64,000 bases of DNA, from positions 1,426,001-1,490,000 of the forward strand of contig NZ_CP024047.1 in the NCBI RefSeq assembly GCF_003430825.1. The letters are read 5' to 3'. This document shows, in pieces, positions 15,859 through 32,619 of this stretch. Made by a program: the position numbers and the translations under genes. The DNA comes from Natrarchaeobaculum sulfurireducens. Its GTDB lineage: Archaea > Halobacteriota > Halobacteria > Halobacteriales > Natrialbaceae. The stretch's first letter is position 1; every line of letters starts with the position of its first letter. The notes below the pieces were generated by a model that made no database searches, was not told the DNA's origin, and saw only the letters and a program-made list of their open reading frames with translations.

Positions 15859-16020
15859 GCACGGATCTTGGGACGGGCCATCATAAGTTACCCTTTCTTG
15901 GCGGAGTTTGTAGTTCACATCTCACATGATGCCGAGCGTCACTGTCGTCACGTAACGGTCGCTTCTCATTGAGTAGGAATATCCTGTGACCTCTTGTCCG
16001 ATCTGTTCGGATCTCTACTC

Positions 16021-16638
16021 ATGAAGGGTCAGCTAAGGGATAAGTTCACGGAAGATAATGACGGGCAACGGAATTTGCGAGCAGAGATAGCAGTTAGCAC
16101 AGGCCATTGCCCCTGTCCATTAGAAGAGATCAGCAACAGTTCAGTTATCTCGCATAAGATACTGGGCGATTGCTGTCACATCCTTGCAGAGGGAGGACGA
16201 GACGAGCCATGTCCTGAGCAAGTACAGACTGACGTATCGCCGGAGTGTCTCTGTGCCGTGTTTATGGATTACAACTGCGTACCGATCCTGGAAGGGACAC
16301 GAGACGACGGCATCGTAATTAGCACCTATCTCCCGAATCGGGACGTCCTAAAGGATATCGTGAGTGATCTGCGGGAAGTCGCCGATGACGTCTCGTTGAG
16401 GCGGCTCTCGGTACCGACTGACCGGGAGACGAGCGACGTCAGATCTGTCAACCTTTCGGTGTTGACCGAACACGAACAACACACGCTGACAGTGGCGATC
16501 GAATCGGGGTACTACAGTTCCCCCCGACAGATCAGTTTCGACGAGTTGGCCTCGAAACTCGAGGTCTCGAAATCGAGCCTCTCGCAACGACTCAGTTCTG
16601 CCGAATCGAAGCTTCTTCTGGACCTCCTCGAGCGGTAA
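16021..16638 (+). CDS. dmsR: Bat/HTH_10-type regulator of the DMSO reductase operon (DmsR-like)
   Basis: A 205-residue cytoplasmic regulator. The C-terminal part (LTEHEQHTLTVAIESGYYSS onward, with FDELASKLEVSKSSLSQRL) is the helix-turn-helix of the bacterio-opsin activator type. The N-terminal part holds eight cysteines (30, 32, 51, 52, 64, 76, 78, 86), suggesting metal, Fe-S or redox sensing. It stands just ahead of dmsEABCD on the same strand, as in the dmsREABCD locus known in Halobacterium. Base composition is visibly less GC-rich than in its neighbours. The ATG at 16021 is preferred to a TTG at 15994; no clear TATA box is seen at 27 bases. Confidence 0.8.
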   Translation: MKGQLRDKFTEDNDGQRNLRAEIAVSTGHCPCPLEEISNSSVISHKILGDCCHILAEGGRDEPCPEQVQTDVSPECLCAVFMDYNCVPILEGTRDDGIVISTYLPNRDVLKDIVSDLREVADDVSLRRLSVPTDRETSDVRSVNLSVLTEHEQHTLTVAIESGYYSSPRQISFDELASKLEVSKSSLSQRLSSAESKLLLDLLER

Positions 16639-16709
16639 CTTTCGTTTCGACGTTGCAGCAGGCTGTGGGTCCTGTTCGTTATCTCCAATCCATCGTTCCG
16701 ATCAGATGC

Positions 16710-16717
16710 TTATAAAG
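16710..16717 (+). promoter_or_regulatory. TATA box of the dmsEABCD operon
   Basis: TTATAAAG in the 142-base gap between dmsR and dmsE. A transcript starting about 26 bases later would have a leader of roughly 40 bases carrying a GGAGGG ribosome site (16770-16775) 5 bases before the dmsE ATG. The separate promoter allows DmsR to control the structural genes. Confidence 0.6.
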
Positions 16718-16780
16718 TGCTAAATTGTTCGCCAACGGGCGGAGGGCCGAATCGATCGTAGGAGTAACTGGAGGGTGCCA

Positions 16781-17041
16781 ATGGAAAACGAACCGAGTCA
16801 AGCGGCGATCGTCGGGGACGTCGACGGGATCGACCCCTCGATATGGGGAGAGACTGCCGACGAGATACTCGACCTGGGACCGCACGATGCGGAGCTCGGG
16901 AAACGGATGAGTCGTGACGCCGTTCGCGTGACTCTCGGACACCTGTCCGAAGCGGCGTTCTACGAGAAGTACCACGATGTCGTGGTCGACGAGTTCGGCA
17001 TTGACGAACGACCGGTAGGAGGAGACGATACACATGAGTGA
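16781..17041 (+). CDS. dmsE: DmsE-like small protein of the DMSO reductase operon
   Basis: An 86-residue acidic protein without cysteines, opening the structural-gene operon. DPSIWGETADEILDLGPHDAELG and the following helix are characteristic of small haloarchaeal proteins encoded just before DmsA (sometimes annotated as a ferredoxin N-terminal domain). It may be a small subunit or assembly factor; no function can be read from it. GGAGGG stands 5 bases before the ATG at 16781 and decides this start over a GTG at 16775. It overlaps dmsA by 8 bases. Confidence 0.65.
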   Translation: MENEPSQAAIVGDVDGIDPSIWGETADEILDLGPHDAELGKRMSRDAVRVTLGHLSEAAFYEKYHDVVVDEFGIDERPVGGDDTHE

Positions 17042-19505
17042 CAACGATAAAAACGGCTTGAGCAGGCGTTCCGTACTGCTATCCGCTGGTGCAACAGCTG
17101 GCGTACTGGGGTATGGTGGAACGAACGTCCTTCGATCGCTCGGAGAGGGCGAGGAGGTCCACGACGTCGAGCGGTTCCTCGACGAAAACACGGTGGTTAG
17201 CGGCTACTGTTCCCCGAACTGTCGGGGACACTGTCCGCTCGACATTCACGTTCGAGATGGGCAGATCAGAAAAGTCGAACCGCAGGTACCCGAACGCGAG
17301 GAATTCAGGCGTGCGTGTACCCTCGGGCAGAGCCACGTTCACCGAACCTACAACCCGAATCGGTTGAAGTACCCGATGGTCCGCAGCGACTGGTCGCCGA
17401 ACGATCCGAACCCGGGAGGACGAGGCCCCGACGCCGAGTTCGAACAGATCTCCTGGGACGAGGCGCTCGATTACATCGCCGACGAAATGGACCGCGTCCG
17501 CGAGGAATACGCGCCCGAAAGCGTTTACTTCGAACTCGGTTCCGGTGGCAGCGGTATCAACGGGACCGTCTTCTCACGGCTCGCCAACCTGTTCGGCGGG
17601 ACCATGAAGGAGTGGTCGATCGACATCAACGTCGGCCTCGGGTTCAACCGGATCACGGGTGAGGGCTTTTTCAACACGCCCACGAACATGCGGACCGACA
17701 TCAAAAACGCCAACACGATCATCATCTGGGGCGGAAACGTCTTCCGGAGTCGGCTCAACCCCGACGCACGATTTCTCCTCGATGCGATCGAAAGCGGGGC
17801 GAAAGTCGTCGCCGTGGATCCTGTCTACAACCAGACGACGGCCAAGTCCGATCTCTGGCTTCCGGTCAAGCCGGGCAAAGACATCCACCTCGTGATGGCG
17901 ATGATTCACACCGTACTCGAGGAAGGACTCGAGGATCGCGAGTTTCTGCGCGAACGCACGCTCGCACCTGCGCTGGTCCGTTCCGACACGGACGAACTCC
18001 TCAAGACCGGCGACGTCTTCGAGGACGGCGACGACGAGACGCCGGTCGCGATCGACGAAGAAACCGGCGAACCGGTCCCGCTCGAACCCGAGACCTACGG
18101 CGAGTACGCGCTCTTCGGCGAGTACGAGGTCGACGGCTACGACGTGACGACCGGGCTCACCGAGATCGAAGCCGCCGTCGCCGACTACTCCCCAGAAGCC
18201 GTCGAAGACACGGTCGGCGTCAAGGCAGGGAACATCCGCCAGACCGTCCGCTGGCTCACGTCTCGCGGTCCCGGCGGCATAATGACCGGGCTGGGCGTCG
18301 ACCGCTACGTCTACGGTCACATCTTCGGGCAGGCATATGCAATCTTGCTGGCGCTGACTGGCGACTACGGCCGAAGCGGTTCGATCACCGGTGGGCGGTT
18401 CGCTGGCTCCGGGTTCGACAGCGATTACGGCACGGTCGAGGGGAGCCCAGGAGCACGCAACATCCAGCAAAAGAGCATCCTGTCGGCGATGGAAGGCGAC
18501 GAGGACCCGCCGATCAAGATGATGTACGCTCAATCATCGAACTTCGTGGCCAACCAGATGCCGGATCGCCAGCGCTGGCTGGACGCACTCGAGAACCTCG
18601 ATCTCGTCGCCGTCGCCGACATCCATCACACGCCGAACATTCAGTACGCCGACATCGCGTTGCCGGCCTCCCACTGGACGGAACGCGAGGACGTCACCGG
18701 TGCGGGCGAACACCCGCACGTGATGTACCGCGAACCGGCCCACGAACCGCTCTGGGACTCGAGGAGCGACAACTGGATGCTCGCTGGTCTCGCTGAGCGT
18801 CTCGGCTACGGAGAACACTTCACGCGCGATCGGACCGAACTTCTCCGTGAGATCCTCGAGGCCGAGGATCGGTTCACGTTCGAGGAACTGCAGGAGAAGG
18901 GGACGGTCCACGTCGAAACCGACGAGGTCGTCTTCACCGGCGAGTTCGACACGCCAACCGGCCGCCTCGAGATCTACGACGAGGACGCACCCTCGGAGGG
19001 CGACGTCTCGCTCGAGGTTCCGGTGCCGATGGAGGATCGGACGGCCGACGATCACGAACTCGCAGACGAGTATCCGCTGCTGTTCATCCAGGGCCACTCG
19101 AGATGGCGAATCCACTCACAGTGGGCAGAAAACCCGGCTATTCGGGAGATCAACCCCGAACCGCAACTCGACATCAATCCGAAGGACGCCAAAGAACGTG
19201 GCATCGAGGACGGTGACTACGTCCGGGTTCACAACGAGCGCGGCGAGATGGTCGTGAAAGCGAAGTACAACGACGGGTATCGGCCAGGGCTGGTCAACAC
19301 CGACCAAGGATGGTGGGGCGACGACTTCGTCGCCGGGCACCTCAACGACCTCACACACACGGACGTCAGCGACGCGATCGAGAATTTCGCGTTCTACGAT
19401 ACCCGCGTCGAAGTCGAGCCAGCCCCCGAGGCCGACACGAGCAGATACGACGACCCGGAGCCGACGGAGTGGCTCGAGGAACTTCCAACCGGAGGTGACG
19501 ACTGA
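17034..19505 (+). CDS. dmsA: molybdopterin oxidoreductase, DMSO/TMAO reductase catalytic subunit
   Basis: An 823-residue Mo-bisMGD enzyme. A Tat signal (SRRSVLLSAG, residues 10-19) predicts export, so S- or N-oxide reduction takes place outside the membrane. Cys59, Cys63, Cys67 and Cys95 should bind the FS0 [4Fe-4S] cluster. The segment WSIDINVGLGFNRITG (195-210) is where the Mo ligand is expected, with Ser196 or Asp198 as candidates. The C-terminal domain ends near GWWGDDFVAGHLNDLTHTD. The gene overlaps dmsE and touches dmsB. Terminal reductase for DMSO/TMAO is inferred from the operon; other oxyanions remain possible. Confidence 0.85.
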   Translation: MSDNDKNGLSRRSVLLSAGATAGVLGYGGTNVLRSLGEGEEVHDVERFLDENTVVSGYCSPNCRGHCPLDIHVRDGQIRKVEPQVPEREEFRRACTLGQSHVHRTYNPNRLKYPMVRSDWSPNDPNPGGRGPDAEFEQISWDEALDYIADEMDRVREEYAPESVYFELGSGGSGINGTVFSRLANLFGGTMKEWSIDINVGLGFNRITGEGFFNTPTNMRTDIKNANTIIIWGGNVFRSRLNPDARFLLDAIESGAKVVAVDPVYNQTTAKSDLWLPVKPGKDIHLVMAMIHTVLEEGLEDREFLRERTLAPALVRSDTDELLKTGDVFEDGDDETPVAIDEETGEPVPLEPETYGEYALFGEYEVDGYDVTTGLTEIEAAVADYSPEAVEDTVGVKAGNIRQTVRWLTSRGPGGIMTGLGVDRYVYGHIFGQAYAILLALTGDYGRSGSITGGRFAGSGFDSDYGTVEGSPGARNIQQKSILSAMEGDEDPPIKMMYAQSSNFVANQMPDRQRWLDALENLDLVAVADIHHTPNIQYADIALPASHWTEREDVTGAGEHPHVMYREPAHEPLWDSRSDNWMLAGLAERLGYGEHFTRDRTELLREILEAEDRFTFEELQEKGTVHVETDEVVFTGEFDTPTGRLEIYDEDAPSEGDVSLEVPVPMEDRTADDHELADEYPLLFIQGHSRWRIHSQWAENPAIREINPEPQLDINPKDAKERGIEDGDYVRVHNERGEMVVKAKYNDGYRPGLVNTDQGWWGDDFVAGHLNDLTHTDVSDAIENFAFYDTRVEVEPAPEADTSRYDDPEPTEWLEELPTGGDD

Positions 19506-20266
19506 TGGTAAACTACGGGATGGTAATCGATCAGGAACGGTGTATCGGCTGTCACGCCTGCGCCGTGGCCTGCAACGACGAGAACAACGTCTCGATGGGG
19601 AACGCCTGGAACCGGATCCTGACCGTCGGCGGTGACGGGATGGATACACCGAACGGTGAGTTCCCGGAAAACGGCGGTGACGGAACGCTGTCGATGGACT
19701 ACCAGCCGACGGCGTGTCAACACTGTCAGAACGCCCCCTGTGTGAAGGTGTGTCCGGTCAACGCGACCTACACGCGCGACGACGGCATCGTCGAAGTCAA
19801 CTACGACAAGTGTATGGGCTGTCGCTACTGTATGAGCGCCTGTCCGTACAACGCCCGCGTGTTCAACTACGACGAACCAGAAACCGTTCCCCCGGACGGC
19901 ACCGGTAACGTCGAAGAGCGCGAGCAGGGCGTCGTCGAGAAGTGTACCTTCTGTAGCCACCGCCTCGAGGAGGGGCTCGATCCGGCCTGTACGATCGCGT
20001 GTCCGTCGAGCGCCCGCATCTTCGGCGACCTCGACGATCCGGACAGCACCGTCTCGCGGTACGTCAAGCAGTACGACACGGACCAGTTGCTCGAGGAACT
20101 CGACACCGAGCCGAACACCCACTACGTCAACGGTGAGATGACGCCTGGACGAAACCACCTGGGCAACGAGATGGAAAGTGAACTCGAAGAGCCACCCCAG
20201 CGCCGCGAGGAGATCACGTACGAGCCGCCGGGTGGTACCGAGGACGAAACGGGAGGTGAAGCCTGA
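19505..20266 (+). CDS. dmsB: four-cluster ferredoxin subunit of DMSO reductase
   Basis: A 253-residue electron-transfer subunit with four [4Fe-4S] cysteine sets: CIGCHACAVAC near residue 13, CQHCQNAPCVKVC, CMGCRYCMSAC, and CTFCSHRLEEGLDPACTIAC. It passes electrons from the membrane subunit DmsC to DmsA. It has no signal peptide, so it would be co-exported with DmsA by the Tat system. The start shares a base with the dmsA stop (TGATG), and the dmsC start shares a base with its own stop. Confidence 0.93.
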   Translation: MVNYGMVIDQERCIGCHACAVACNDENNVSMGNAWNRILTVGGDGMDTPNGEFPENGGDGTLSMDYQPTACQHCQNAPCVKVCPVNATYTRDDGIVEVNYDKCMGCRYCMSACPYNARVFNYDEPETVPPDGTGNVEEREQGVVEKCTFCSHRLEEGLDPACTIACPSSARIFGDLDDPDSTVSRYVKQYDTDQLLEELDTEPNTHYVNGEMTPGRNHLGNEMESELEEPPQRREEITYEPPGGTEDETGGEA

Positions 20267-21636
20267 TGAGTTCGTCCGAGAAACGAGCCGAGGCGGGCGT
20301 CGTCGTTCCCGAGTTCGGCACTCGCGGGAAGGCCTGGCTGGGCGTGCTCGTGCTGGCGATCGTCGTCGGCTTCGGCGCGTGGGGCTATCAGCTCAGCCAG
20401 GGGCTCGCAGTCACCGGGATGAACAACGTCTTCTCCTGGGGACTGTACATCATGCTGTTCGTCCTCTTCATCGGTCTCTCTGCGGGTGGATTGATCATCT
20501 CGAGTGCACCGAAGTTCTTCCACTCGGACCGGTACGCGACGCTGGCGCCGCTGGGGATCCTGCTGAGCCTGGCGTGTATCGTCGTCGCCGGGCTGTTGAT
20601 CCTGCCGGACCTGGGTCGTCCGAGCCGCGTGATCGGCTTTCTCACGTCGCCGGACTTCAGGTCGCCGATGGTGTGGGACTTCGGGATCGTGCTCGTCTAC
20701 GGGCTGTTCAGCGCCGGCTACCTCTGGCTGCTGACGCGGCGCGACCTCGCGAAGATGGGCTCGCGCCTCGCGTTCGGCACCGAGGACACGGAAGAGGGGC
20801 GCAAGAAAGACCGTAAACTGGCGTTCTGGGCCGCCGCAGTGGCGATTCCGCTCGCCATTGCGCTGCACTCGGTGACCGGCTGGATCTTCGCGACCCAGAT
20901 CGGTCGTGGCGACTGGTTCAACCCGCTAGTCGCGCCGATGTTCATCATGAAGGCGCTGGTCTCCGGGCTGGCGCTGCTGGTCGTGACGGCGATTCTGGTC
21001 GATCGGTTCACTCGGTTCCGGTTGCCACAGAAACTCGTCCCCGAGTTAGGGAAGGTCCTGGGTGTGTTCGTCGCGATTCACGTCGTCTATCTGGTCGCAG
21101 CCGAACGGCTCCCCCACGCGTGGGCATCGGAGTTCGAATTCTGGGCGATCACGAGCGCGTTCTTGGTGGGCGACTCCATCCACTTCTGGCTGTGGACGGT
21201 CGTCGGCGGGGCGGTGCCGATCGTCCTGCTGGCGGTCCCGTCCTTGCGCCGAAAACTGTGGGTAGTGTTCGTCGCGAGCGTACTGGCGATCGTCGGCATC
21301 CTCTTCGAGGGCGTCTACCTGCTCTTTACGGGCTATCAGGACCTGAACATCGACGCGGCACCGGGCGTGACCAGCGGCACCGACTACGTCGGAGTCGGCT
21401 CGGACGTCTGGGTGACCGCAGGCTACTACACGCCGACGCTGGTCGAACTGCTGGTGACGATCGGGATCGTCGCACTCGGTGCGCTGATCGTCACGCTCGG
21501 GCTCCGATTCGTGCCGATCCAGCCCGGTGGCGGTGAAGCCGTCCGAGTCAGCCGGACCGAACAGCAGACGACGGACACCGACGCGTCCGTCGCCACTGAT
21601 GGTGGACGGGACACTCCTGGTGGTGGCCCACGATGA
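20266..21636 (+). CDS. dmsC: NrfD/DmsC-type membrane anchor subunit
   Basis: A 456-residue polytopic membrane protein of the NrfD/PsrC family with about nine or ten hydrophobic helices between residues 20 and 440. It should oxidise menaquinol and pass electrons to DmsB. Characteristic stretches include FSWGLYIMLFVLFIGLSAGG and DLGRPSRVIGF near the start, the usual quinone-side region. The C-terminal tail after the last helix is polar and acidic. It overlaps dmsD by 4 bases. Confidence 0.9.
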   Translation: MSSSEKRAEAGVVVPEFGTRGKAWLGVLVLAIVVGFGAWGYQLSQGLAVTGMNNVFSWGLYIMLFVLFIGLSAGGLIISSAPKFFHSDRYATLAPLGILLSLACIVVAGLLILPDLGRPSRVIGFLTSPDFRSPMVWDFGIVLVYGLFSAGYLWLLTRRDLAKMGSRLAFGTEDTEEGRKKDRKLAFWAAAVAIPLAIALHSVTGWIFATQIGRGDWFNPLVAPMFIMKALVSGLALLVVTAILVDRFTRFRLPQKLVPELGKVLGVFVAIHVVYLVAAERLPHAWASEFEFWAITSAFLVGDSIHFWLWTVVGGAVPIVLLAVPSLRRKLWVVFVASVLAIVGILFEGVYLLFTGYQDLNIDAAPGVTSGTDYVGVGSDVWVTAGYYTPTLVELLVTIGIVALGALIVTLGLRFVPIQPGGGEAVRVSRTEQQTTDTDASVATDGGRDTPGGGPR

Positions 21637-22172
21637 GTACGTCCGCACTGTCTCCGACCGACGAACAGGACCGAACGGTGCTAGCTGGCGGCTACGCCGT
21701 GCTGGCAGCGTGCTGGCGACAGCCAACCAAAACCCTGCTCGAGGACGTGGCGGTCGAAACGCTGGCCGACGTGGATCCAGCGGTTCGGGACGCCGACATC
21801 GAGTCCCTGCGTGTCGAGCACGCACGGCTGTTCGTCGGTCCGGAAGAGCCGAAATGTCCGCCCTACGAGAGCGTCTATCGTGACTCGAGGGACTCCGTCC
21901 TCGGCCCGACGACGCGGGCGGTCGTCAAGTGGTACCAGACTTACGGACTGGGGTTAGATCCCGACTGGCCCGATCTACCGGACCACGTCGCGACCGAACT
22001 CGAGTTCGCGGCGTACCTGCTCGAGCACGAGGACGTCGAGACCTGCGAACAGTTCCTCGACGAACATCCCCGTCAGTGGATGACTGCGTTCCTCGAGGGC
22101 GTTCGTCGGGAGACTCGTGAGCCGTATTACCGGGCGCTTGCGGAGTTGACTGCTGCCGCGATCGAGCAGTAA
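21633..22172 (+). CDS. dmsD: TorD/DmsD-type maturation chaperone
   Basis: A 179-residue all-helical protein of the TorD family that binds molybdoenzyme precursors and delays Tat export until the cofactor is inserted. EHARLFVGPEEPKCPPYESVY matches the family region that ends in the conserved Pro-x-x-Ser/Tyr segment, and DHVATELEFAAYLL is the conserved helix after it. It closes the dms operon (4-base overlap with dmsC) and should serve DmsA. Confidence 0.88.
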   Translation: MSTSALSPTDEQDRTVLAGGYAVLAACWRQPTKTLLEDVAVETLADVDPAVRDADIESLRVEHARLFVGPEEPKCPPYESVYRDSRDSVLGPTTRAVVKWYQTYGLGLDPDWPDLPDHVATELEFAAYLLEHEDVETCEQFLDEHPRQWMTAFLEGVRRETREPYYRALAELTAAAIEQ

Positions 22173-22410: not shown

Positions 22411-24303
22411 CTATAGTAACAACTGCAACGATTCGCACACTGATCGCCGACCCGTCTGGTGATCAGGTGCACATTGACGTGCAGTGGCTACTCTACTGAG
22501 GCCGAGTCGCTCGAGCGTTTCGGGGGCGATACCGTCGTCGGTCCACCCACGGCGGTCGTAGTAGTCGCGTTTCATCGCCTCGAGTTCCTCGCGGTCGAAC
22601 GACGCCGGCGGCAGGTCGGGTCCGCCTGGATCGTCAGCGAGTGGCTTCCGGAGCCGTTTTGGCAGCGAGTCGTCGGTGATCGAAAAGCCCTCTCTGGCTG
22701 CGAACAGCTTCCCGAGCGCGTAGTTTCGTTCGCCGATTTCGAGTGCCGTCTCGACGGACAGCTCGAGGCCGGTGGCTGCGGCGGCGAGAGCACACAGCGA
22801 CTCGAAATTGCGGTCCGGTCCGACGGTGACGACGACGTGCGAGCAGAACACGAGCGAGTTGACGAAGCTCTGTGCGTTCTCGAAGGTGACGACGGCGTCG
22901 GGTTTGCCGTCGGTCGCGTCCGCGGCGAGGCCAGTTTCGACCGGCAGGTCGGTCTCGACGTGGTGTTCGACCAGCGTATCGTGAAAGCCCTCCATGTGCG
23001 TCGCACCGCGGGGCGAGGTCGCGGCCGAGAGCCCCAGTCCTTTCTTCCCGCGCGGATCGTGCATCCCCGCGGGCGCACCCTTGACCGTGGCCGCGTCGTC
23101 GATGCCCAGCGCCTCGGCGGCCGCGTCCGGGCCGTCCGCGAGCACGTCGCCGATCCCCTCACGGGTGGCGATTTGCTCGACTAGCCCGAGTATGGCGTCG
23201 GCGTCGCCCCACTCGACATGGCCGGCTTCCATCGCAGCAGCGATCACGTGGCCGACGCCGATCGTGTCCATGCCGAGGGCGTTACAGCGCTGGTTCGCCA
23301 GCGCGATCGCCTCGAGGTCGTCGTTACAGAGCAGGCTACCGAAGGCGGCGAGCGTCTCGTACTCCGGGCCGGAGGCGTCGTCGATCGAGACGCCGCGACA
23401 CTCGCCGCGGACGACGGGCTTACACTCGAGCGGACAGCCGAGACAGCCGCGCTGGCCGACCTGAAGGGACGCGTTGAGCGCTCGAGCGCCGATCTCGTCG
23501 GCCCCCTCGAACCGGCCGCGTTCGAAGTGTTTCGTCGGAAGCAACCCCTGCTCGTGGAGGATCTCGACGGCAGCGGTGGTACCGAAGGTGGCCCACTGCT
23601 GGAGGCGCTCGTTTTCCGCGAGCCCACGTCTGAACGCTCGAGTGAGTCTCTCGAACCGCTCGGGCTCGGCCAGCGGCGGCGGGCTGTCACCGCCGACGAC
23701 GACTGCCTTGAGCCGTTTGGCACCCATGACGGCTCCGAGGCCGCGGCCGCCCGCGGCGTGGCCGCTGTCGTTGATGATCGAAGCCAGGTGGACCTCGTGT
23801 TCGCCGGCGGGACCGATTGCAGCGACAGCCCGGTTCGGACGGCTCGCCAGCGCGTCGTCGACGACGTCCGTCGGCTCGCCCCAGCAGTCGCCCGCGGGCT
23901 CGAGCGTGAGGTCGCCGTCCGTCACTCTGAGTACGACGGGGTCGTCGGCGCGTCCCTCGACGAGGATCGCGTCGACGCCGGACCGGGCGAGGAAGTGGCC
24001 GAACGAGCCGCCGGAGTACGACTCGCCGAGGCTCCCGGTCAGCGGCGAACGGGCACCCACCCAGTATCGCGAACTGCCGGGGACGGAGTAGCCCGAAAGC
24101 GGCCCCGCCGCGAACACGAGTCGGTTCTCGGGGCCGAGCGGATCGACTCCCGCTGACATCGACTCGAGCAGCAGGCGGATACCCAGTCCCCGACCGCCGA
24201 GGTGGCGCTCGAGCCACGAGTCGGGGATCGGACACGTGGCTACCTCACCGGCGTCGAGGTCGGCGACGGCGACGCGGCCGTGGAGTCCGTCCACGGCGAT
24301 CAC
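22411..24303 (-). CDS. aldehyde ferredoxin oxidoreductase (AOR family)
   Basis: A 630-residue tungsten- or molybdenum-pterin enzyme of the AOR family, which oxidises aldehydes to carboxylates with ferredoxin or runs in reverse. The start GLHGRVAVADLD and HLGGRGLGIRLL are typical. GQRGCLGCPLEC (Cys287, 290, 294) with Cys487 should hold the [4Fe-4S] cluster. The GTG at 24303 overlaps the polyferredoxin stop by 4 bases and gives a family-like N-terminus; a GTG at 24339 adds a doubtful 12 residues. The last 28 residues after RLGLS look atypical for the family. As last gene of the formate dehydrogenase operon, it may share electrons with it. Confidence 0.88.
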   Translation of the reverse strand: MIAVDGLHGRVAVADLDAGEVATCPIPDSWLERHLGGRGLGIRLLLESMSAGVDPLGPENRLVFAAGPLSGYSVPGSSRYWVGARSPLTGSLGESYSGGSFGHFLARSGVDAILVEGRADDPVVLRVTDGDLTLEPAGDCWGEPTDVVDDALASRPNRAVAAIGPAGEHEVHLASIINDSGHAAGGRGLGAVMGAKRLKAVVVGGDSPPPLAEPERFERLTRAFRRGLAENERLQQWATFGTTAAVEILHEQGLLPTKHFERGRFEGADEIGARALNASLQVGQRGCLGCPLECKPVVRGECRGVSIDDASGPEYETLAAFGSLLCNDDLEAIALANQRCNALGMDTIGVGHVIAAAMEAGHVEWGDADAILGLVEQIATREGIGDVLADGPDAAAEALGIDDAATVKGAPAGMHDPRGKKGLGLSAATSPRGATHMEGFHDTLVEHHVETDLPVETGLAADATDGKPDAVVTFENAQSFVNSLVFCSHVVVTVGPDRNFESLCALAAAATGLELSVETALEIGERNYALGKLFAAREGFSITDDSLPKRLRKPLADDPGGPDLPPASFDREELEAMKRDYYDRRGWTDDGIAPETLERLGLSRVATARQCAPDHQTGRRSVCESLQLLL

Positions 24304-26102
24304 CCCAGGATCGACGACCGGCGACAGGCCGGACAGCACTCGAGCTCGAGCGACGACGCGCTCGTCCCCTCGAGTGCGTCGCGGACGTGCTCGACGCCCG
24401 CCGCACTGGCGAACCGGTCGCCACAGCGTTCACAGACGATGCCGTCCGGTTCGACGACGCGCTGGCGATCTCCGAGCGGGACGGCGACCGTCTCGTCGAC
24501 CTCGATCGCGTCCTCGGGACAGACGACACAGATGCCACAGCCCGTACACGCGGCGGGATCGACCGACAGCGCGTCGGCACCATGCTGAACGATCGCACCC
24601 GTCGGACAGAGGTTGTCACAGGCACCACACAGCGTGCAGGCGTCGGCGTCGACCGAGATGCTCCCGAGTGCCGGGACCGAGATCCCTGTCTGCGGGCCGT
24701 CGGCGAGCGCGTCGACGGCCCCCGCCGAGAGCGCTGACGCCGTCGTCCCGTGAGCCAGGATCGGATCGGGATCGTCGACCAGCGGCTCGTCACGAGCGAC
24801 CGCCTCGAGCGTGGCCGCGACCGTCGCCGGATCGGCCGACGCGACGCGTTCGACGGGTGCGTCGCCGGCGAGGTCCTCGAGCGTCGCTCGAGCTGCCTCG
24901 GTGGGCTCGTCGACGGCTGCTGCGGCTTCGTCGGGGTCGGCGACGACGGCGACGCCACCGGCGCCGGCGGCGACCGTTCCCAGCAGCTGGGCTGCCGGAA
25001 CCCGTCCTGCGTTGGGGACGGGAATCGGGACCGTCGGCGGGCCGTCGACGGCCGCTTCGACGACTGCGGGAAGCACCGACCGGGCAGTGAACGCGATCAC
25101 GACCGGCTCGGGATCGCTCCCGACGAACGGCAGGCGTGAGCCACCGCTCGAGACCGTCTCGAGTGCGGACCGCGTCGCCTTCCCGAGCCGCCCGAGCGAG
25201 GGGGCTCGCGGCGACGTGATGGCCTCGGTCGGGCACGCGCCGAGACAGACGCCACAGTCCGTACAGGCGTCGGCGTCGATCGTCACCGACCCGTCGCCAT
25301 CGCTCGATATCGCGACCGCGTCGTGCGGACAGACGACCTCACAGGCCCGACAGCCAGCCGTGCCGCGGCGACCGACGGTACATCGTGAGGCGTCGACGGC
25401 AACCGGGGCTCGAGCTCGTTCGCGGGCGACGCGAGCCACGGCGCTGACGGCCCCTCGAGCCTCGGCGTGGACGTCGAACCGATCTGCGAGTGGGCCGTCG
25501 TATCCCGGCCAGACGATCTGGTCGGCCGCGAGTCGGTCCGTCGCTCCGTCGCGGTCGACGAGGACGGTGATCTCGCCGCCGTCGCCCTCGAGCAGATCGA
25601 GTGCCCGACCGCGCACCGGGCTGACGTCAGGGAGTCGCCGGCCGAGCGGCTCCGGGGTGACGAGCGCGACAGGAAGCGCAGTCGCGAGGTCGCTCGCCAG
25701 CGCCGGATCGCCGACGACGACGACCCGATCCTCGTCGGGATCGGGACGCTCGGTCGACGACTCGGGTGCGAGCGTCAGGGCGGCGTCCGTCGCCGCGGCG
25801 ACGATCCGACCGCGTTCATCGTCGGAACGACCCCGCCCGAGACGTGGGTCGATCCAGGCGACGTACTCGACGCCTGCCGCACGGAGATCGGCCTCGAACC
25901 GGTCGCGTTCGTGAGTCGGGTTGCGGGCCGCCGTCGAGACGATCGCGACCCGGTCGCAGGGCTCGCCGCTCGCGGTGTCCGTCGCCGTCTCGAGGACGCT
26001 CTCGAGCGACGAACCGGTGATCGACCGACCCTCGAACGCGTCGGCGACAGCGCGCCGATCGAGGCTCGTTCCCGCATCACAGACCAGCGCGAGCGAGGTC
26101 AT
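24300..26102 (-). CDS. polyferredoxin with cysteine-less FlpD-like middle domain
   Basis: A 600-residue soluble protein. Residues about 1-235 are a Rossmann-like region without cysteines. Next come two [4Fe-4S] sets (CTVGRRGTAGCRACEVVC and CTDCGVCLGAC), then a middle domain with PIPVPNAGRVPAAQLLGT and GAGGVAVVAD that recalls the FlpD/MvhD hydrogenase-linked domain but without its cysteines. Two further sets follow (CTLCGACDNLC and the one-residue-shorter CTGCGICVVC), and a C-terminal zinc-ribbon-like CERC...CCPAC. It should carry electrons between formate dehydrogenase and AOR. It overlaps the genes on both sides by 4 bases. The FlpD assignment is by eye. Confidence 0.75.
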   Translation of the reverse strand: MTSLALVCDAGTSLDRRAVADAFEGRSITGSSLESVLETATDTASGEPCDRVAIVSTAARNPTHERDRFEADLRAAGVEYVAWIDPRLGRGRSDDERGRIVAAATDAALTLAPESSTERPDPDEDRVVVVGDPALASDLATALPVALVTPEPLGRRLPDVSPVRGRALDLLEGDGGEITVLVDRDGATDRLAADQIVWPGYDGPLADRFDVHAEARGAVSAVARVARERARAPVAVDASRCTVGRRGTAGCRACEVVCPHDAVAISSDGDGSVTIDADACTDCGVCLGACPTEAITSPRAPSLGRLGKATRSALETVSSGGSRLPFVGSDPEPVVIAFTARSVLPAVVEAAVDGPPTVPIPVPNAGRVPAAQLLGTVAAGAGGVAVVADPDEAAAAVDEPTEAARATLEDLAGDAPVERVASADPATVAATLEAVARDEPLVDDPDPILAHGTTASALSAGAVDALADGPQTGISVPALGSISVDADACTLCGACDNLCPTGAIVQHGADALSVDPAACTGCGICVVCPEDAIEVDETVAVPLGDRQRVVEPDGIVCERCGDRFASAAGVEHVRDALEGTSASSLELECCPACRRSSILG

Positions 26103-26797
26103 CGATCCACCTCCACTGGGAGCTCGGGGTCGACGCCCAGCCGCTCGGCGTCGAACGCGACGAGTCCGGCAGCCAGTTCGGCGACGGCGCGGTAGAACGC
26201 GTCATCCTCGCCAGCGACGTCGTCGACGTCGGCTGCGAACTCGTCCCACCACCAGCCGTGTTCGCCGAGGAACCACGACTTCGCCGTCGGCTCGTCGGCT
26301 TCACGTCGCGTGAGCAACGCGAGCACGCGGAGTTCGACGGCCGCGTGGTCGGCTTCCTCCCGGAGGTCCGATGCCGGCTCGAGGCCGAGTTCGGCGTAGC
26401 TGCCGTGGACCCGGGCAAGTGGCTCGCCGAGGAAGTCGCCGGCGTAGTACGATTCGTGAGCCTGGAGCTTCGGCCGCGGGCCGACGAACAGCTGCGTGTG
26501 GCTGCGCTCGAGCACCGCGGCCGCCGCCTCGGGGTCGTCGACCTCGCGTCGCCACCGCTCGAGTCCGGCGAAGCCACGCCGAAGACGGTCGGTGGGTGCG
26601 AGGTCGTCGTCGGCTGCGCCGAGAGCAATGAGCTGTTCGACCGCCTCCGGACTGGGGGGGTCGGCAAACACGTCTGCTGCGAACTCATAGAGGCCGGCGA
26701 TCGTCTCGCGCTCTGCCTCGAGTGGGTCGTCATGTGCGCCGACTGGTCGGCTGTCGATGCCGTCGGCCGTCGGGTCGTCGGGTGTCGTATCGGTCAT
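26099..26797 (-). CDS. TorD-family chaperone for the formate dehydrogenase
   Basis: A 232-residue, helical, acidic protein of the TorD family. ERSHTQLFVGPRPKLQAHES is the conserved core, followed by DHAAVELRVLALL as in DmsD from the neighbouring operon. It lies between the cytochrome b gene (start and stop share a base) and the polyferredoxin gene (4-base overlap). It should escort the Tat-exported catalytic subunit FdhA, and possibly help with metal cofactor insertion in AOR. Confidence 0.85.
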   Translation of the reverse strand: MTDTTPDDPTADGIDSRPVGAHDDPLEAERETIAGLYEFAADVFADPPSPEAVEQLIALGAADDDLAPTDRLRRGFAGLERWRREVDDPEAAAAVLERSHTQLFVGPRPKLQAHESYYAGDFLGEPLARVHGSYAELGLEPASDLREEADHAAVELRVLALLTRREADEPTAKSWFLGEHGWWWDEFAADVDDVAGEDDAFYRAVAELAAGLVAFDAERLGVDPELPVEVDR

Positions 26798-27837
26798 CAG
26801 AAGTCACCTCGGAGTCGCTTCGCCAGGCCGTAACAGATCGCGAGCACGCCCGCGACGATCAGGAGAACGGCGACGTTCAGGCCGAGGAAGAAGACGACGC
26901 TGGCGGCCCCGTGCGTGACCGGATCGAACGGCAACGCGAGCAGGTACTCCCGGGTCGGCAGCGGCGAGAGGACCGCCGCGAACAGCGTCGAAAGCAGGAC
27001 GACCGCGAAAAACGCGAGCAACGCGAGCGTGATCACAGCCAGCGTCCGTCGCGACGGCACCGGCGTCTCGTCGTGTCCGGCGTCGGCGTCGCCCTCGAGT
27101 TGTTCGTCGGCCCAGTCGGCCCAGTGATGTTTCGCTCGGCTCGCCGAGACGTCGCCGGTGAACATCGTCCGGTTGAACGGGAATCGCTCTTTGACGTTCA
27201 CCATGTAGAGGTGAAAGGCGATTCCCATCAGCATCGTCAGCGCGACGACGACGTGGATGTCCCGGACGATCAACAACAACACGTCGGCGAGGTGTTCGTG
27301 GCCGCCGAGTGCCGCACGGAACTCCGGCGAGACGAACAGCCCGCGATACCACAGCAACAGGCCGGTGACGCTGAGTACCAGTAACTCGACGCCCAGCACC
27401 CAGATCTCGCCCTTCTGGAGCCAGGTGTACTTGTCCGCAGCGGGCTTTTCGCCCCGGCCCAGCAGGTACTTGACATAGCCAATCGCCTCGCTCACGTCCT
27501 GGCGGGTCGGCAGCGCCGCAATCCGTCCCGGCCCGAAGAGGCCGGTCAACGCGACGTACAGCAGATAGTAGGTCGCGACCGTGATGAACACGACGCCAGC
27601 GGCGACGTGGAGAAATACGATGTTGCCGTAGCCGAAGATGGCAAACAGCCAGCCGAGGTGGTCGGCGAACGTCATCGGTAGTCCCGTGAGATAGAGGACG
27701 AAAATACAGAGTGCAATCGTCCCGTGGACGTACACCTGCACGCTCGAGAAGCGCTCGAGCCGTCGCTCTCCGGTGGCGGCCTCGGTCGCGTCGGCTCCGC
27801 CGGGCATCTCGCCGGGTGTGTCGGTGCTTGTCGCCAT
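26797..27837 (-). CDS. formate dehydrogenase cytochrome b subunit (FdnI-like)
   Basis: A 346-residue membrane protein. The first hydrophobic block begins at VQVYVHGTIALCIFVLYLTG, and further helices carry candidate haem ligands: HVAAGVVF, and a pair in RDIHVVVALTMLMGIAFHLYM. It should anchor the complex, bind haem b and pass electrons from formate to menaquinone. Two additional C-terminal helices after about residue 270 are separated by a short acidic cytoplasmic stretch. The ATG at 27837 shares a base with the upstream stop codon; the longer frame to 27936 is an artefact. Confidence 0.85.
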   Translation of the reverse strand: MATSTDTPGEMPGGADATEAATGERRLERFSSVQVYVHGTIALCIFVLYLTGLPMTFADHLGWLFAIFGYGNIVFLHVAAGVVFITVATYYLLYVALTGLFGPGRIAALPTRQDVSEAIGYVKYLLGRGEKPAADKYTWLQKGEIWVLGVELLVLSVTGLLLWYRGLFVSPEFRAALGGHEHLADVLLLIVRDIHVVVALTMLMGIAFHLYMVNVKERFPFNRTMFTGDVSASRAKHHWADWADEQLEGDADAGHDETPVPSRRTLAVITLALLAFFAVVLLSTLFAAVLSPLPTREYLLALPFDPVTHGAASVVFFLGLNVAVLLIVAGVLAICYGLAKRLRGDF

Positions 27838-28160
27838 CACGCCATCACCTCTCGTGCGCTCGCGAGTGCAAACAGCGAGATCAGGCCGGCGACGAAGACG
27901 ATGTAGACGCCGAGGAGCGCCCGTACGGCCAACCACAGCCCCTCGTAGGCGTTGTACGTCATCTCGCCGCCGACGATCGCCACGCTAGTTTCGCGCAAGA
28001 CCGGCGCCTCGGCGAGCGGGACCGAAAGCGACTCGAGCCAGACCAACAGCCCGATGACGATCCCGACCGCGAGGACGCCAGCGATCGCCGAGCGATGCCG
28101 GTAGAGCACGCTCGAGGCGTCGCCGCCGGAGCGCGTCGTCGTCGATTGTTTGGTTGCCAT
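27837..28160 (-). CDS. small two-helix membrane protein of the formate dehydrogenase operon
   Basis: A 107-residue protein with a polar basic N-terminus, one hydrophobic helix at about 24-42 (IAGVLAVGIVIGLLVW) and a second at about 78-100 (LLGVYIVFVAGLISLFALA). The stretch between them is exposed and charged. I know of no named family for it. Its place between the Fe-S subunit and the cytochrome b subunit, with a stop-start overlap to the latter, suggests an accessory subunit that links the two. The ATG at 28160 is chosen over a GTG 9 bases upstream. Confidence 0.7.
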   Translation of the reverse strand: MATKQSTTTRSGGDASSVLYRHRSAIAGVLAVGIVIGLLVWLESLSVPLAEAPVLRETSVAIVGGEMTYNAYEGLWLAVRALLGVYIVFVAGLISLFALASAREVMA

Positions 28161-28202
28161 CGTGATCACCCGTGGCTGCCTCGACAGCCCGCTGTCGCGG
28201 GA

Positions 28203-28757
28203 TTACTCATTGCCGAACACCACCTGCTCGAGGTCGCCGTCGAAGAGGTCGTCGGAGCGGTTCTCGCGGAACTGCTCGGAGAGTTCCGCAGGCGTCCCGA
28301 ACACCAGCGCGTCCGTCGCACACTCGGAGACGCAGGCGGGTTCCTCTCCCTCCTCGAGACGAGGTGCACAGAGCGTACACTTGTCCATGACGCCCGCGTT
28401 GCCCGTGGAGTTCTCCTCGTCGGGGAACTGCGGTGCGCCGAACGGACACGCCCAGGCGCAGTAGCTACAGCCGAGACACGTGTCCTCGTCGACCTGGACC
28501 AGTCCATCGTCGTCGCGCGAGATGGCGTCGGTCGGACAGACGTCTTCGCAGGGGGCCTCCGCACAGTGGAAGCAGGTCATCGGGACGGCGGTTTCGCCGT
28601 CGTCGAATCGGCTGCCTGCTGTGCCCTCGTTGTGGGTAACGACCCCGATTCGGTCGCTCTCTTCGGGGAGCTCCCAGGTTCGCATACAGGCGACTTCGCA
28701 GCCGCCACAGTCGATACACGCCTCGACGTTCGGAATGACTCGTGGTGTGCCGGACAT
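28203..28757 (-). CDS. formate dehydrogenase iron-sulfur subunit
   Basis: A 184-residue four-cluster ferredoxin subunit. Cysteine sets are CIDCGGCEVAC (Cys14, 17, 20, 24), CFHCAEAPCEDVC, CLGCSYCAWAC and CTLCAPRLEEGEEPACVSEC. It is shorter than E. coli FdnH and lacks its C-terminal membrane helix; the adjacent two-helix protein may supply that anchor. It lies 6 bases behind the catalytic subunit gene. It should hand electrons from FdhA to the cytochrome b. Confidence 0.9.
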   Translation of the reverse strand: MSGTPRVIPNVEACIDCGGCEVACMRTWELPEESDRIGVVTHNEGTAGSRFDDGETAVPMTCFHCAEAPCEDVCPTDAISRDDDGLVQVDEDTCLGCSYCAWACPFGAPQFPDEENSTGNAGVMDKCTLCAPRLEEGEEPACVSECATDALVFGTPAELSEQFRENRSDDLFDGDLEQVVFGNE

Positions 28758-28763
28758 GGGTGA

Positions 28764-31694
28764 TCACCTCGTGTAGCCGCGCTGTCGCTGGTAGGATTGC
28801 TGTGCCTCGGGCAGTTCGGGAACGTCAGCGTCAGCAGCCGGCTCGAGCCGGCAGAGGCCGGTCTTCGTCGCCTGCATGTTCGTGACGACGTCGTAGCCGA
28901 CGGAGGTCCCGATGTTCACCGAATCGCCGATCACCAGTGGCTCGGTCCCCTCGGGGTAGCGGTCGGCGTACGATTCACCCTCGAAGATCCCCGCCCAGTG
29001 AAACGGCATGAAGATCTCTTCTTCGTTGACCCGCTCGGTGACCATCGCCTGGACGAGCATCGAGCCCGGTTCGGCGTGGACCCAGACCCAGTCACCCGTC
29101 TCGAGGGCGTGTTCGTTGGCGACCCTGGGGTGCATCTCGGCGTACATCATGGGCGACCGGTTGGCCGTCCCGACGGTGTTTCGCGTCTCGTAGCCGCCGC
29201 CGTGATGTTCGACCTGTCGACCGCTCGTCAGGATCAGCGGGAACTCCTCGGCCAAGTCCCGGAACGCCTCCTGGTGACCACGGTTGTCGAGGTCGAGTCG
29301 GTAGAAGTCCTCCTGTTTCTCGTAGTTCGGATACTCGTCGATCAGATCCGGCCGGGGCGTCTCGACGGGTTCGCGGTGGACCGGCACCTCGTCCGGCTGG
29401 TCCCAGACGGCCGCTCGAGCCCGGCCGCGCCCGGTCGGGGCGTCGGGTTGTGGGTTGTCGAAGGCCTCGAACTCCTCGGGATCGACGTCGTAGCCGTCCT
29501 CGGCGAGTGCGACCGCGGCGTCGTATACCGAGCGGTCCTCGCTGAGGGCGTACTCGATCGGGATCGTCTTCGCGGCAGGCGTCTCCGGATCGGGTAACAC
29601 GGTGGTGTACGCCGGGTACTGCGGGACGCCTTCGACTTCGCCGTCCCACCAGTCGGGCTCGTAGGGGGCACGCAACATCGACTCGCCGTCGGGGGCTTCC
29701 GGCCCCCAGTTCGCCCGGAAGTCGTGGCCACCCTCCTCGGGATGGACGTCGTCCCGGTAGAGGATCGGCGTTCCGGGGTGCTCGTCGTGCCAGCACGGCC
29801 ACGGCAGCCCCCAGAACTCGCCGGCGAGGTCGTGGTCGTCCGTCACCTCCGCCTGTCTCGTCTCCGGATCGAAGACGTGGCTGTTCTCCATGTGGGCTTT
29901 GATCCGCTCCGGTGTCTGCCCGATCAGCCCGATCGAGCGCACCCCGAGGTTGATCTCGCGGAGGACGTCCTCGACCGAGTCGTAGTCGAAGTGCTCACCG
30001 AAGCCAAGGCGGTCTGCGAGGTCCGTCAACAGCTCGAAGTCCTGGCGCGAGTTGTGTCGCGGCGTGACCGCCTGATAACGCCACTGGACCGACCGACTCG
30101 TATCCGTGACGCTCCCCTCGCTCTCGTGGTTCGTCGCCGCCGGCAGCAGGATGATGCCGTCCTCGCGTTCCGGCAGCGCCCCGTGGACCCCTGGGAACGG
30201 GTCGACGCCGATCACGATCTCGACGTTCTCGAGCGCTTCCTTGACCCGCTTCATCTCGCTCAGAGAGTTCAGCGAGTGGCCCCAGACGACGAGGGCTTTC
30301 ACCTGTTCGGGCTGGTACAGTTCGCCTTTGCGCTCGTCGTCGTCGAGTGCGCCCTCGAACCAGCGACTCACCGTCAGCCCGTTTTTCTCCATCAGCTCCT
30401 GGGACTCGAAGCGCTCACGCATCTCGTCGTACGTGATCGAGCCGCTCGTCTGCGGTGACTGGTCCCAGACGTTCGTCCAGTGTTCCCACGCCCCCTGACC
30501 GAGGCCGTAGTAGCCGGGCAGGTTGTGCGAGAGGATGCACATGTCCGTCGCCCCCTGGACGTTGTCGTGCCCGCGGACGGGGTTGTTCCCGCCACCCGGC
30601 TGTCCGGTGTGGCCGAGCGCCAGGTTGAGGATCGCGTACGATCGGATGTTCTGCGTTCCGACGGTGTGCTGGGTCGACCCCATCGACCACTCGACGGAAC
30701 TCACGTCGGCGTCGACCAGCGCCTCGGCGACCTCCTCGAGTGTCTCGACCGGTACCCAGGTGATGTCTTCGACCGTCTCGAGGTCGTAGTCGGCGATGGT
30801 CTCCTTGACTCGTTCCCAGTCGTAAACTCGGGACTCGAGGAAGTCCTCGTCGTGGGCCTCGAGGGTGTAGACGATGTGATACAGGAGGCCGTTGATGAAG
30901 GCGATGTCCGTTCCCGGCCGGAACCGGGCGAAGATGTCGGCGTGGGCGGCCGTTTTCGAGAAACGCGGTTCGGCGACGATGACGGTTCCGCCGTTTCGTT
31001 TTGCCTCCTGTACGTATCGCATCATCACCGGGTGTGCTTCCGCGGGGTTGTGTCCGATGATGAGGTTCGCGTCGGCGTTCGCGACGTCGTTGACCGACTG
31101 TGTCATCGCACCGAAGCCCCACGTCGCGGCCAGACCGGCAACGGTCGTCGAGTGACAGATCCGGGCCTGGTGGTCGACGTTGTTCGTGCCGTAAAACGCC
31201 GCCAGTTTTCGGAACAGGTACGCCTCTTCGGTGGCGATTTTGGCCGATCCCATCCACATCGTGCTGTCGGGGCCGTACTCCTCACGGACGCGCGTCAGTT
31301 CGTCGGCGACCTCGGCCATCGCCTCGTCCCAGTCGAGACGAACCCACTCGCCATCTTCTTTCTTCATCGGCTCTTTCAGCCGACGCTCGGAGTTGACAGT
31401 CTGTGTCAGACTCGCCCCCTTCGAACAGAGCCCGCCCTGATTGATCGGATGGTCTGTCCAGGCCTCCTGGCCGACGAGCGCATCGTTCTCGACGACCATC
31501 TTCAGACCACAGCCGACCGCACAGTGTGAACAGATCGTCTTCACTGACTCCCGTTCGCCTTCGGAGTCGTCGCCAGCCGACTGTGACGGCTGTACCAGTG
31601 ATCGTCCCCCGATCCCCGTTCCGAGGGCAGCGATCCCACCCGCTTTGACGAAGTTTCGACGATCGACGTCGAGTGACTGTGATCCATCAGTCAT
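28764..31694 (-). CDS. fdhA: formate dehydrogenase catalytic subunit (FdnG-like, Cys type)
   Basis: A 976-residue Mo/W-bisMGD oxidoreductase. A Tat signal (DRRNFVKAGG, residues 11-20) predicts an extracytoplasmic enzyme. The FS0 cluster ligands are Cys55, Cys58, Cys62 and Cys90. The motif ARICHSTTVAGLAATWGFGA places Cys180-His181 where E. coli FdnG has selenocysteine-histidine, so this is a cysteine-type formate dehydrogenase. The C-terminal cofactor domain includes FPLILTSGRQVEHHGGG and RVANEHALETGDWVWV. It opens a seven-gene operon. Direction in vivo is most likely formate oxidation to menaquinone. Confidence 0.9.
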   Translation of the reverse strand: MTDGSQSLDVDRRNFVKAGGIAALGTGIGGRSLVQPSQSAGDDSEGERESVKTICSHCAVGCGLKMVVENDALVGQEAWTDHPINQGGLCSKGASLTQTVNSERRLKEPMKKEDGEWVRLDWDEAMAEVADELTRVREEYGPDSTMWMGSAKIATEEAYLFRKLAAFYGTNNVDHQARICHSTTVAGLAATWGFGAMTQSVNDVANADANLIIGHNPAEAHPVMMRYVQEAKRNGGTVIVAEPRFSKTAAHADIFARFRPGTDIAFINGLLYHIVYTLEAHDEDFLESRVYDWERVKETIADYDLETVEDITWVPVETLEEVAEALVDADVSSVEWSMGSTQHTVGTQNIRSYAILNLALGHTGQPGGGNNPVRGHDNVQGATDMCILSHNLPGYYGLGQGAWEHWTNVWDQSPQTSGSITYDEMRERFESQELMEKNGLTVSRWFEGALDDDERKGELYQPEQVKALVVWGHSLNSLSEMKRVKEALENVEIVIGVDPFPGVHGALPEREDGIILLPAATNHESEGSVTDTSRSVQWRYQAVTPRHNSRQDFELLTDLADRLGFGEHFDYDSVEDVLREINLGVRSIGLIGQTPERIKAHMENSHVFDPETRQAEVTDDHDLAGEFWGLPWPCWHDEHPGTPILYRDDVHPEEGGHDFRANWGPEAPDGESMLRAPYEPDWWDGEVEGVPQYPAYTTVLPDPETPAAKTIPIEYALSEDRSVYDAAVALAEDGYDVDPEEFEAFDNPQPDAPTGRGRARAAVWDQPDEVPVHREPVETPRPDLIDEYPNYEKQEDFYRLDLDNRGHQEAFRDLAEEFPLILTSGRQVEHHGGGYETRNTVGTANRSPMMYAEMHPRVANEHALETGDWVWVHAEPGSMLVQAMVTERVNEEEIFMPFHWAGIFEGESYADRYPEGTEPLVIGDSVNIGTSVGYDVVTNMQATKTGLCRLEPAADADVPELPEAQQSYQRQRGYTR

Positions 31695-31974: not shown

Positions 31975-32619
31975 TCAGGGCTCGATCGTCACAGCCTCGA
32001 GCGCCCTTGGCGTGTCGATGCTCTCGAACGTCCGCAGGGCGGTCCGGTCGAGTTCATCCTCGTCGACGGTCTCGAGGTCGAGCGAGCCGATCGCCGAGAC
32101 GACGCTCGGTTCCCCATGGATGAGCGCATCGATACAGGCACGGCGCATCGCCTCGGTCCGGTAGACGGCACCCATTGGCTGGACGTGGCCCGCAGCACAT
32201 CGAACGATCGCGCCATCGACACCGCCAGCCAGCCCCGCCAGTCGCTCGAGCAGCGATGGATCGAGAAACGGCGTATCACAGGCAACGACCGCAGTGTATG
32301 CGTGGTCGACGCTTTCGAGTCCGGTCCGGATGCCGGCGACGGGGCCGCGATCGGGAACGGGATCGACGGCGAATCGACACGGCTCGACCCCTTCGAGCGC
32401 CGCCCGAATCGTCGGAACCTGTTCAGCTCGACAGTTGACGACGAGTTCGTCGACGACCGACCAGAGCCGGTCGACAGCCAGCCGGATCATCGGTGTCCCA
32501 GCGAGTCTCGCGACAGCTTTATCGGTCGTCCCGAATCGTCTCGAGTAGCCACCAGCGACGACTAATCCTGCGAGCGGGCTGGAAGACGACACAGTCGCGA
32601 GTCGTTCGGCTCGCAGCAT
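31975..32619 (-). CDS. mobA: molybdenum cofactor guanylyltransferase
   Basis: A 214-residue cytosolic nucleotidyltransferase that adds GMP to molybdopterin to give the MGD form used by the DMSO reductase family. The N-terminal GLVVAGGYSRRFGTTDKAVA holds the GTP-binding loop and lysine; VACDTPFLD is the metal-binding aspartate segment, and GHVQPMGAVYR the substrate loop. It lies 280 bases upstream of the formate dehydrogenase operon on the same strand, which fits supply of cofactor to FdhA and DmsA. The fold also occurs in other nucleotidyltransferases, but this context makes MobA likely. Confidence 0.85.
   Translation of the reverse strand: MLRAERLATVSSSSPLAGLVVAGGYSRRFGTTDKAVARLAGTPMIRLAVDRLWSVVDELVVNCRAEQVPTIRAALEGVEPCRFAVDPVPDRGPVAGIRTGLESVDHAYTAVVACDTPFLDPSLLERLAGLAGGVDGAIVRCAAGHVQPMGAVYRTEAMRRACIDALIHGEPSVVSAIGSLDLETVDEDELDRTALRTFESIDTPRALEAVTIEP

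Follow-up and report, generated by a model that had tools for sequence, protein, structure and literature searches.

Proteobacterial FDH3 loci, such as those on Sulfitobacter and Salipiger plasmids, encode an FdhABC enzyme (an FdhA with a Tat signal, an FDH3-like beta subunit and a cytochrome b gamma subunit) together with TorD and a 4Fe-4S protein homologous to the polyferredoxin considered here (PolyF), whose gene is divergent from fdhA; fer4, TorD and DUF3305/3306 have been named as members of fdhGHI operons (PMC4464133). Among haloarchaea, the membrane formate dehydrogenase (Fdh) locus of Halodesulfurarchaeum (G007) has FdhA, FdhB, CytB, TorD and PolyF in the same order as the locus that we describe, with 65% identity in FdhA. 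In strain AArc1 of Natronolimnobius/Natrarchaeobaculum sulfurireducens the membrane Fdh has been reported as three subunits (AArc1_1462-5) found only in anaerobic growth, and the portion of that report available to us discusses neither PolyF nor an aldehyde:ferredoxin oxidoreductase (AOR) (PMC6176080). AORs with a polyferredoxin partner are established in AorAB, Wor1LS and BamBC (PMC12096430), where the AOR-family enzyme is encoded next to a small, AOR-dedicated polyferredoxin, and in methanogens MvhD and HdrA modules link Fdh with other enzymes (7bkb).

Here, we describe a variant of this known kind of Fdh locus. The window (the whole 64,000-nucleotide stretch of Natrarchaeobaculum sulfurireducens DNA that was analyzed) contains at 22411–31694 seven genes, all on the minus strand: FdhA, the molybdopterin catalytic subunit (28764..31694, 976 aa); FdhB, a ferredoxin-like subunit (28203..28757, 184 aa) with 16 Cys in ferredoxin motifs and four [4Fe-4S] expected; TM2, a two-helix membrane protein (27837..28160, 107 aa); CytB, a cytochrome b561-type, Fdh gamma-like membrane subunit (26797..27837, 346 aa); a TorD/NarJ-type chaperone (26099..26797, 232 aa); PolyF (24300..26102, 600 aa); and AOR_W, an AOR-family protein (22411..24303, 630 aa counted from the GTG at 24303 that is most likely its start). 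FdhA and FdhB are separated by 6 bases and FdhB and TM2 by 42; one base is common to the TM2–CytB and to the CytB–TorD junctions (TGATG), and the TorD–PolyF and PolyF–AOR junctions are 4-base overlaps. The preliminary description had these coordinates, gaps and overlaps right, as well as the catalytic Cys180, judging by our junction and motif checks, and its gene families were confirmed by Pfam: Molybdopterin/Molydop_binding for FdhA, Fer4_11 for FdhB, cytochrome b561 for CytB (PF01292, 78 bits), Nitrate_red_del (TorD/NarJ type) for the chaperone, several Fer4 for PolyF, and AFOR_N (227 bits) and AFOR_C (334 bits) for AOR_W, with no match among Pfam families for TM2. Upstream of FdhA, at a distance of 280 bases and also on the minus strand, there is a MobA-like molybdenum cofactor guanylyltransferase (31975..32619).

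The genes of this operon are presumably co-expressed. FdhA has the ARxC-H Cys/Sec motif (Cys180 in ARICHST) and a Tat signal and is encoded with a membrane cytochrome b, as in FDH-N and FDH3, but the scores of the alpha and beta subunits fall short of the curated cut-offs: FdhA reaches 510 bits against the 666 cut-off of the NCBIfam Fdh-alpha model, and the best NCBIfam model for FdhB, FDH3_beta, gives 148.8 bits, under its cut-off of 240. By sequence, the alpha and beta subunits thus resemble FDH3 without curated equivalog membership. The Tat motif of FdhA, RRNFVKA, lies at its N-terminus, and the RR motif is present in 80/83 FdhA sequences; mature FdhA should therefore be outside the cell, away from PolyF and AOR_W, neither of which has an export signal. 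Compared with the proteobacterial FDH3 loci, the window has no DUF3305/3306 or Tat-signal FdhX gene, an AOR has been added, and the cytochrome subunit is separate from TM2. TM2 might be a detached N-terminal portion of the gamma subunit of the bacteria, but blastp and phmmer detected no similarity between the two. Two-helix proteins, for which there is no Pfam family, have a conserved position between FdhB and CytB, where many other haloarchaeal loci encode a protein of 136 aa (e.g., L167:6473-6883), and may help to anchor FdhB.

The PolyF protein carries four [4Fe-4S] motifs. Its sequence, an AlphaFold2 model built from 23 sequences (mean pLDDT 71.9) and the subsequent structural alignment together give a domain order of HdrA-like N-terminus, truncated Rossmann-like domain (124–231), 2[4Fe-4S], MvhD/FlpD-like domain (331–441), 2[4Fe-4S] and C-terminal CxxC...CxxC. 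HdrA chains head the structural matches (Z 12.3–13.2), and the MvhD chain 8rvu_F aligns over 111 residues (Z 12.5, rmsd 2.5); the flavin domain is incomplete, only ~105 residues (124–231) aligning with the FAD/NAD fold. One ~710-aa haloarchaeal homologue matches PF02662 (69 bits). The ~710-aa homologues have the [2Fe-2S] ligand cysteines of the MvhD-like region and one further cluster motif, both absent from the window protein; across PolyF orthologues two diclusters are conserved, and in most genomes the MvhD-like domain has its cysteines.

A contig scan with PolyF as the query gave a single weak match. In Halodesulfurarchaeum (G007 and G001) PolyF stands beside Fdh and TorD in loci from which, unlike the window, the AOR is absent (PolyF being 35% identical in G007), and on a Natronorubrum bangense plasmid (NZ_CP031306.1, L275; 2990–11088) a PolyF homologue is found with TorD, a molybdopterin oxidoreductase, a 4Fe-4S protein and NrfD, adjoining ars genes and with no Fdh or AOR there. 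The co-occurrence of PolyF and TorD in FDH3, Halodesulfurarchaeum and ars-linked loci indicates that PolyF is a companion of TorD and of exported molybdoenzymes rather than of AOR. An assignment as an AOR-dedicated subunit of the AorA/WorS/BamC type was rejected, since homologues occur without AOR; in contrast to those small proteins, PolyF has 600 aa, is HdrA/MvhD-like and is a protein of Fdh/TorD loci. In function, its nearest analogue is NapF, a cytoplasmic protein with four [4Fe-4S] that is encoded with an exported molybdoenzyme, NapA, and assists it before export (PMC10609526), although PolyF is much larger.

AOR_W can be compared with the tungsten-containing P. furiosus AOR (1aor). Both AFOR domains are present, and Cys287/290/294/487, Glu316 and His436 correspond to Cys288/291/295/494, Glu313 and His448 of the P. 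furiosus enzyme, so that the redox site, with four Fe-S cysteines and the catalytic Glu and His all kept, is complete as read from the alignment; AOR_W differs in its placement in an Fdh operon and in changes at Asn93, Arg182 and Asp338. It also has a tail of ~25 residues with two Cys (window 22411–22490) past the region alignable to characterized AORs. AOR_W occurs in only 3/292 genomes (the window genome, G052 and G282), each time inside this operon. A tree of 82 haloarchaeal AORs, which has SH-aLRT support only and some long branches, sets AOR_W, with G052 and G282 only, apart from a large clade (AOR_B) that is the source of the Fdh-linked AOR elsewhere.

The association of an AOR with this Fdh is widespread. 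The FdhA is found in 77/292 genomes of the class, and we collected neighborhoods from 81 FdhA loci besides the window with a distance limit of 12 kb: FdhB is near 80 of these, TorD 78, PolyF 75, AOR 58, CytB at least 70 and MobA at least 23, the last two being lower bounds for genes that are divergent or lie partly beyond the fetched stretch. The AOR is thus the optional part, being near 58 loci where PolyF and TorD are near 75 and 78. The preliminary description had proposed that the gene order be sought in other haloarchaea and had named its absence outside close relatives as a refutation; this refutation does not apply, as the AOR–Fdh link extends well beyond close relatives, to 60/77 genomes, 24/31 genera and 6/8 families with this FdhA, a tally that takes in the window, G053 (AOR ~8.5 kb off) and G282 (whose cluster is interrupted at the end of a contig) and that, like the neighborhood counts, comes from genomes that share kinship and are non-independent trials. 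In the most common layout, CytB–TM2–FdhB–FdhA is divergent from PolyF–TorD, and AOR, often with MobA, lies 1.5–5 kb beyond. In G052 and G282 the genes are likewise arranged as one operon on a single strand, in the window's order through TorD–PolyF–AOR (AOR identity 75% and 73%, respectively), the G282 cluster ending inside CytB at the contig end; with the order kept in these genomes, a chance arrangement of the operon can be excluded. A complete Fdh–PolyF–TorD–DyP-like–AOR cluster is carried by a Haladaptatus salinisoli plasmid (NZ_CP085333.1, L276; 3385–17772). AOR-family proteins and formate dehydrogenases are therefore tied together across haloarchaea, a pairing unmentioned in the literature that we found.

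The AOR_B clade, widespread in haloarchaea, is the more surprising side finding. All four Fe-S cysteines and the Glu313 equivalent are missing from 58/58 AOR_B sequences, yet the His448 equivalent and the pterin-binding segments are kept in every one; 24/24 other AORs compared keep all of these residues. In a model of AOR_B the AOR fold is intact (TM 0.82 to 1aor); the region where the cluster would have been bound is modeled with low confidence. The window genome itself has an AOR_B gene, outside the window (G000:C3:2086700-2088538), between MobA and YqeC. We compared the neighborhoods of 34 AOR_B loci with those of 110 other AORs in 59 genomes: 23/34 AOR_B genes have an FdhA, membrane or cytosolic, no more than 12 kb away (other AORs, 1/110), 24/34 are near YqeC or MobA (3/110), and 30/34 are near any of Fdh, MobA and YqeC (4/110). 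Within this sample AOR_B occurs only in genomes with a formate dehydrogenase (34/34) and always with YqeC; Fdh occurs without AOR_B in 12/59 genomes. Chance is excluded as the source of the AOR_B–Fdh association, although the kinship of these genomes inflates formal p-values. The cytosolic Fdh partners of AOR_B score above the NCBIfam Fdh-alpha cut-off, and we discarded a reading of the ~716-aa FdhA-like neighbors as assimilatory nitrate reductases, for which they fall far under the NasA cut-off. Some AOR_B loci lie near a formate-tetrahydrofolate ligase or a TupA-like tungstate-binding protein, the latter below its curated cut-off. After AOR_B there are often genes for three further proteins, namely a longer DUF7124 protein, a membrane protein of 88 aa and one of ~120 aa (L117:7006-8575, L119:6913-8517 and similar loci). 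DUF7124 was rejected as an AOR-specific marker: a copy is found in 116/116 haloarchaeal genomes, the longer second copy being beside many AOR_B genes.

Two questions can now be kept apart, namely the role of a complete AOR beside a respiratory Fdh and the reason why most Fdh loci have an AOR unable to move electrons by way of the usual cluster. To the first, the answer that we favor, and which we consider about evenly balanced between right and wrong, is that the operon specifies a respiratory formate dehydrogenase of an FDH3-like type, its assembly factors and a co-regulated, cytoplasmic tungsten AOR. Tat-exported FdhA with FdhB would oxidize formate on the outer face and pass electrons to CytB with TM2 and on to menaquinone, and TorD and PolyF would be cytoplasmic helpers of Fdh, PolyF most likely playing its part ahead of export, in the way that NapF assists NapA. 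AOR_W would be a complete tungsten enzyme in the cytoplasm, with ferredoxin or PolyF as its electron acceptor and possibly formaldehyde, or some other aldehyde, as its substrate; its place in the Fdh operon would follow from sharing with Fdh both a metal requirement and the anaerobic conditions in which formate is used. AOR_W would thus be tied to Fdh by metabolism and regulation rather than wired to mature FdhA as a subunit. Two observations weigh against this explanation: the PolyF diclusters and the cysteine-bearing MvhD-like domain of most genomes suit electron transfer equally with assembly, and two distinct AOR clades next to Fdh exceed what a common metal supply alone predicts.

The preliminary description had the conserved association of AOR and Fdh right, but its proposal that PolyF moves electrons between the membrane Fdh and AOR, so that formate drives acid reduction or aldehyde electrons reach quinone, fared poorly and now seems improbable. 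The 4-base overlap of PolyF with AOR_W, the four [4Fe-4S] motifs and the precedents of AorAB and of the methanogen MvhD/HdrA modules speak for such coupling; however, PolyF is retained where AOR is missing, the AORs linked to Fdh have mostly lost the Fe-S ligands required for electron transfer to any ferredoxin, and, with FdhA predicted to be exported, the membrane would stand in the way of any wire that ran from mature FdhA by PolyF to AOR. Acid reduction from menaquinol is, moreover, uphill. On account of the topology and the occurrence of PolyF without AOR, we rejected a direct Fdh–PolyF–AOR wire as the main reading. There is a similarly slight probability that PolyF serves cytoplasmic enzymes (AOR and cytosolic Fdh) in the manner of the methanogen Fdh–MvhD–HdrA assembly, its place in the Fdh operon reflecting regulation: its fold and domain order fit, and HdrA-like and MvhD-like folds are linked to formate dehydrogenase in both, but PolyF is one fused chain with a truncated flavin domain and the MvhD cysteines lost, HdrB/C are absent from the locus, Fdh is predicted to be exported, and the constant TorD neighbor better suits assembly. 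That tungsten-dependent anaerobic genes merely travel together, without functional interaction, is also very unlikely; the entire cluster on the Haladaptatus plasmid and the rarity of AOR_W fit such co-inheritance, whereas the association recurs with two AOR clades and is kept in 24 genera.

For the second question, three features suggest that AOR_B is a bis-MPT scaffold: it has lost the cluster and the Glu, it has kept the pterin site, and it is accompanied by MobA, YqeC and Fdh. The AOR-fold protein YdhV holds bis-Mo-MPT, and MobA turns bis-Mo-MPT into bis-MGD in vitro (PMC9103625). We tentatively hypothesize that the Fe-S-less haloarchaeal clade holds metal-bis-molybdopterin, the form used by MobA, for maturing, probably tungsten, formate dehydrogenases, and that, with the intact AOR of the window, the fold was recruited to an Fdh locus a second time, independently. 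A broader proposal, that Fdh-locus AOR-family proteins generally bind the metal-bis-MPT intermediate and pass it to MobA for bis-MGD, AOR_W perhaps doing so besides or instead of aldehyde chemistry, appears unlikely; the AOR_B residues and neighborhoods argue for it, but AOR_W has its whole redox site, AOR_B beside MobA and YqeC in the same genome makes AOR_W unneeded as a stand-in, and 12/59 genomes have Fdh without AOR_B. In Methylorubrum, a dedicated tungsten maturation route for formate dehydrogenase runs through MoeA1–MobB–MobA–FdhD, with AOR unmentioned (PMC13197769), and our literature search on Fe-S-less AORs, or on YqeC with Fdh, found nothing pertinent. AOR_B makes the holding and hand-over of bis-pterin intermediates before Fdh insertion directly testable in haloarchaea.

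Beyond AOR_W, the plus strand of the window (15994–22172) has a gene for a DmsR-like regulator and an operon of the DMSO reductase type, with catalytic subunit, Fe-S protein, NrfD and chaperone; these genes run towards the Fdh operon, making enzymes for electron donor and acceptor neighbors.
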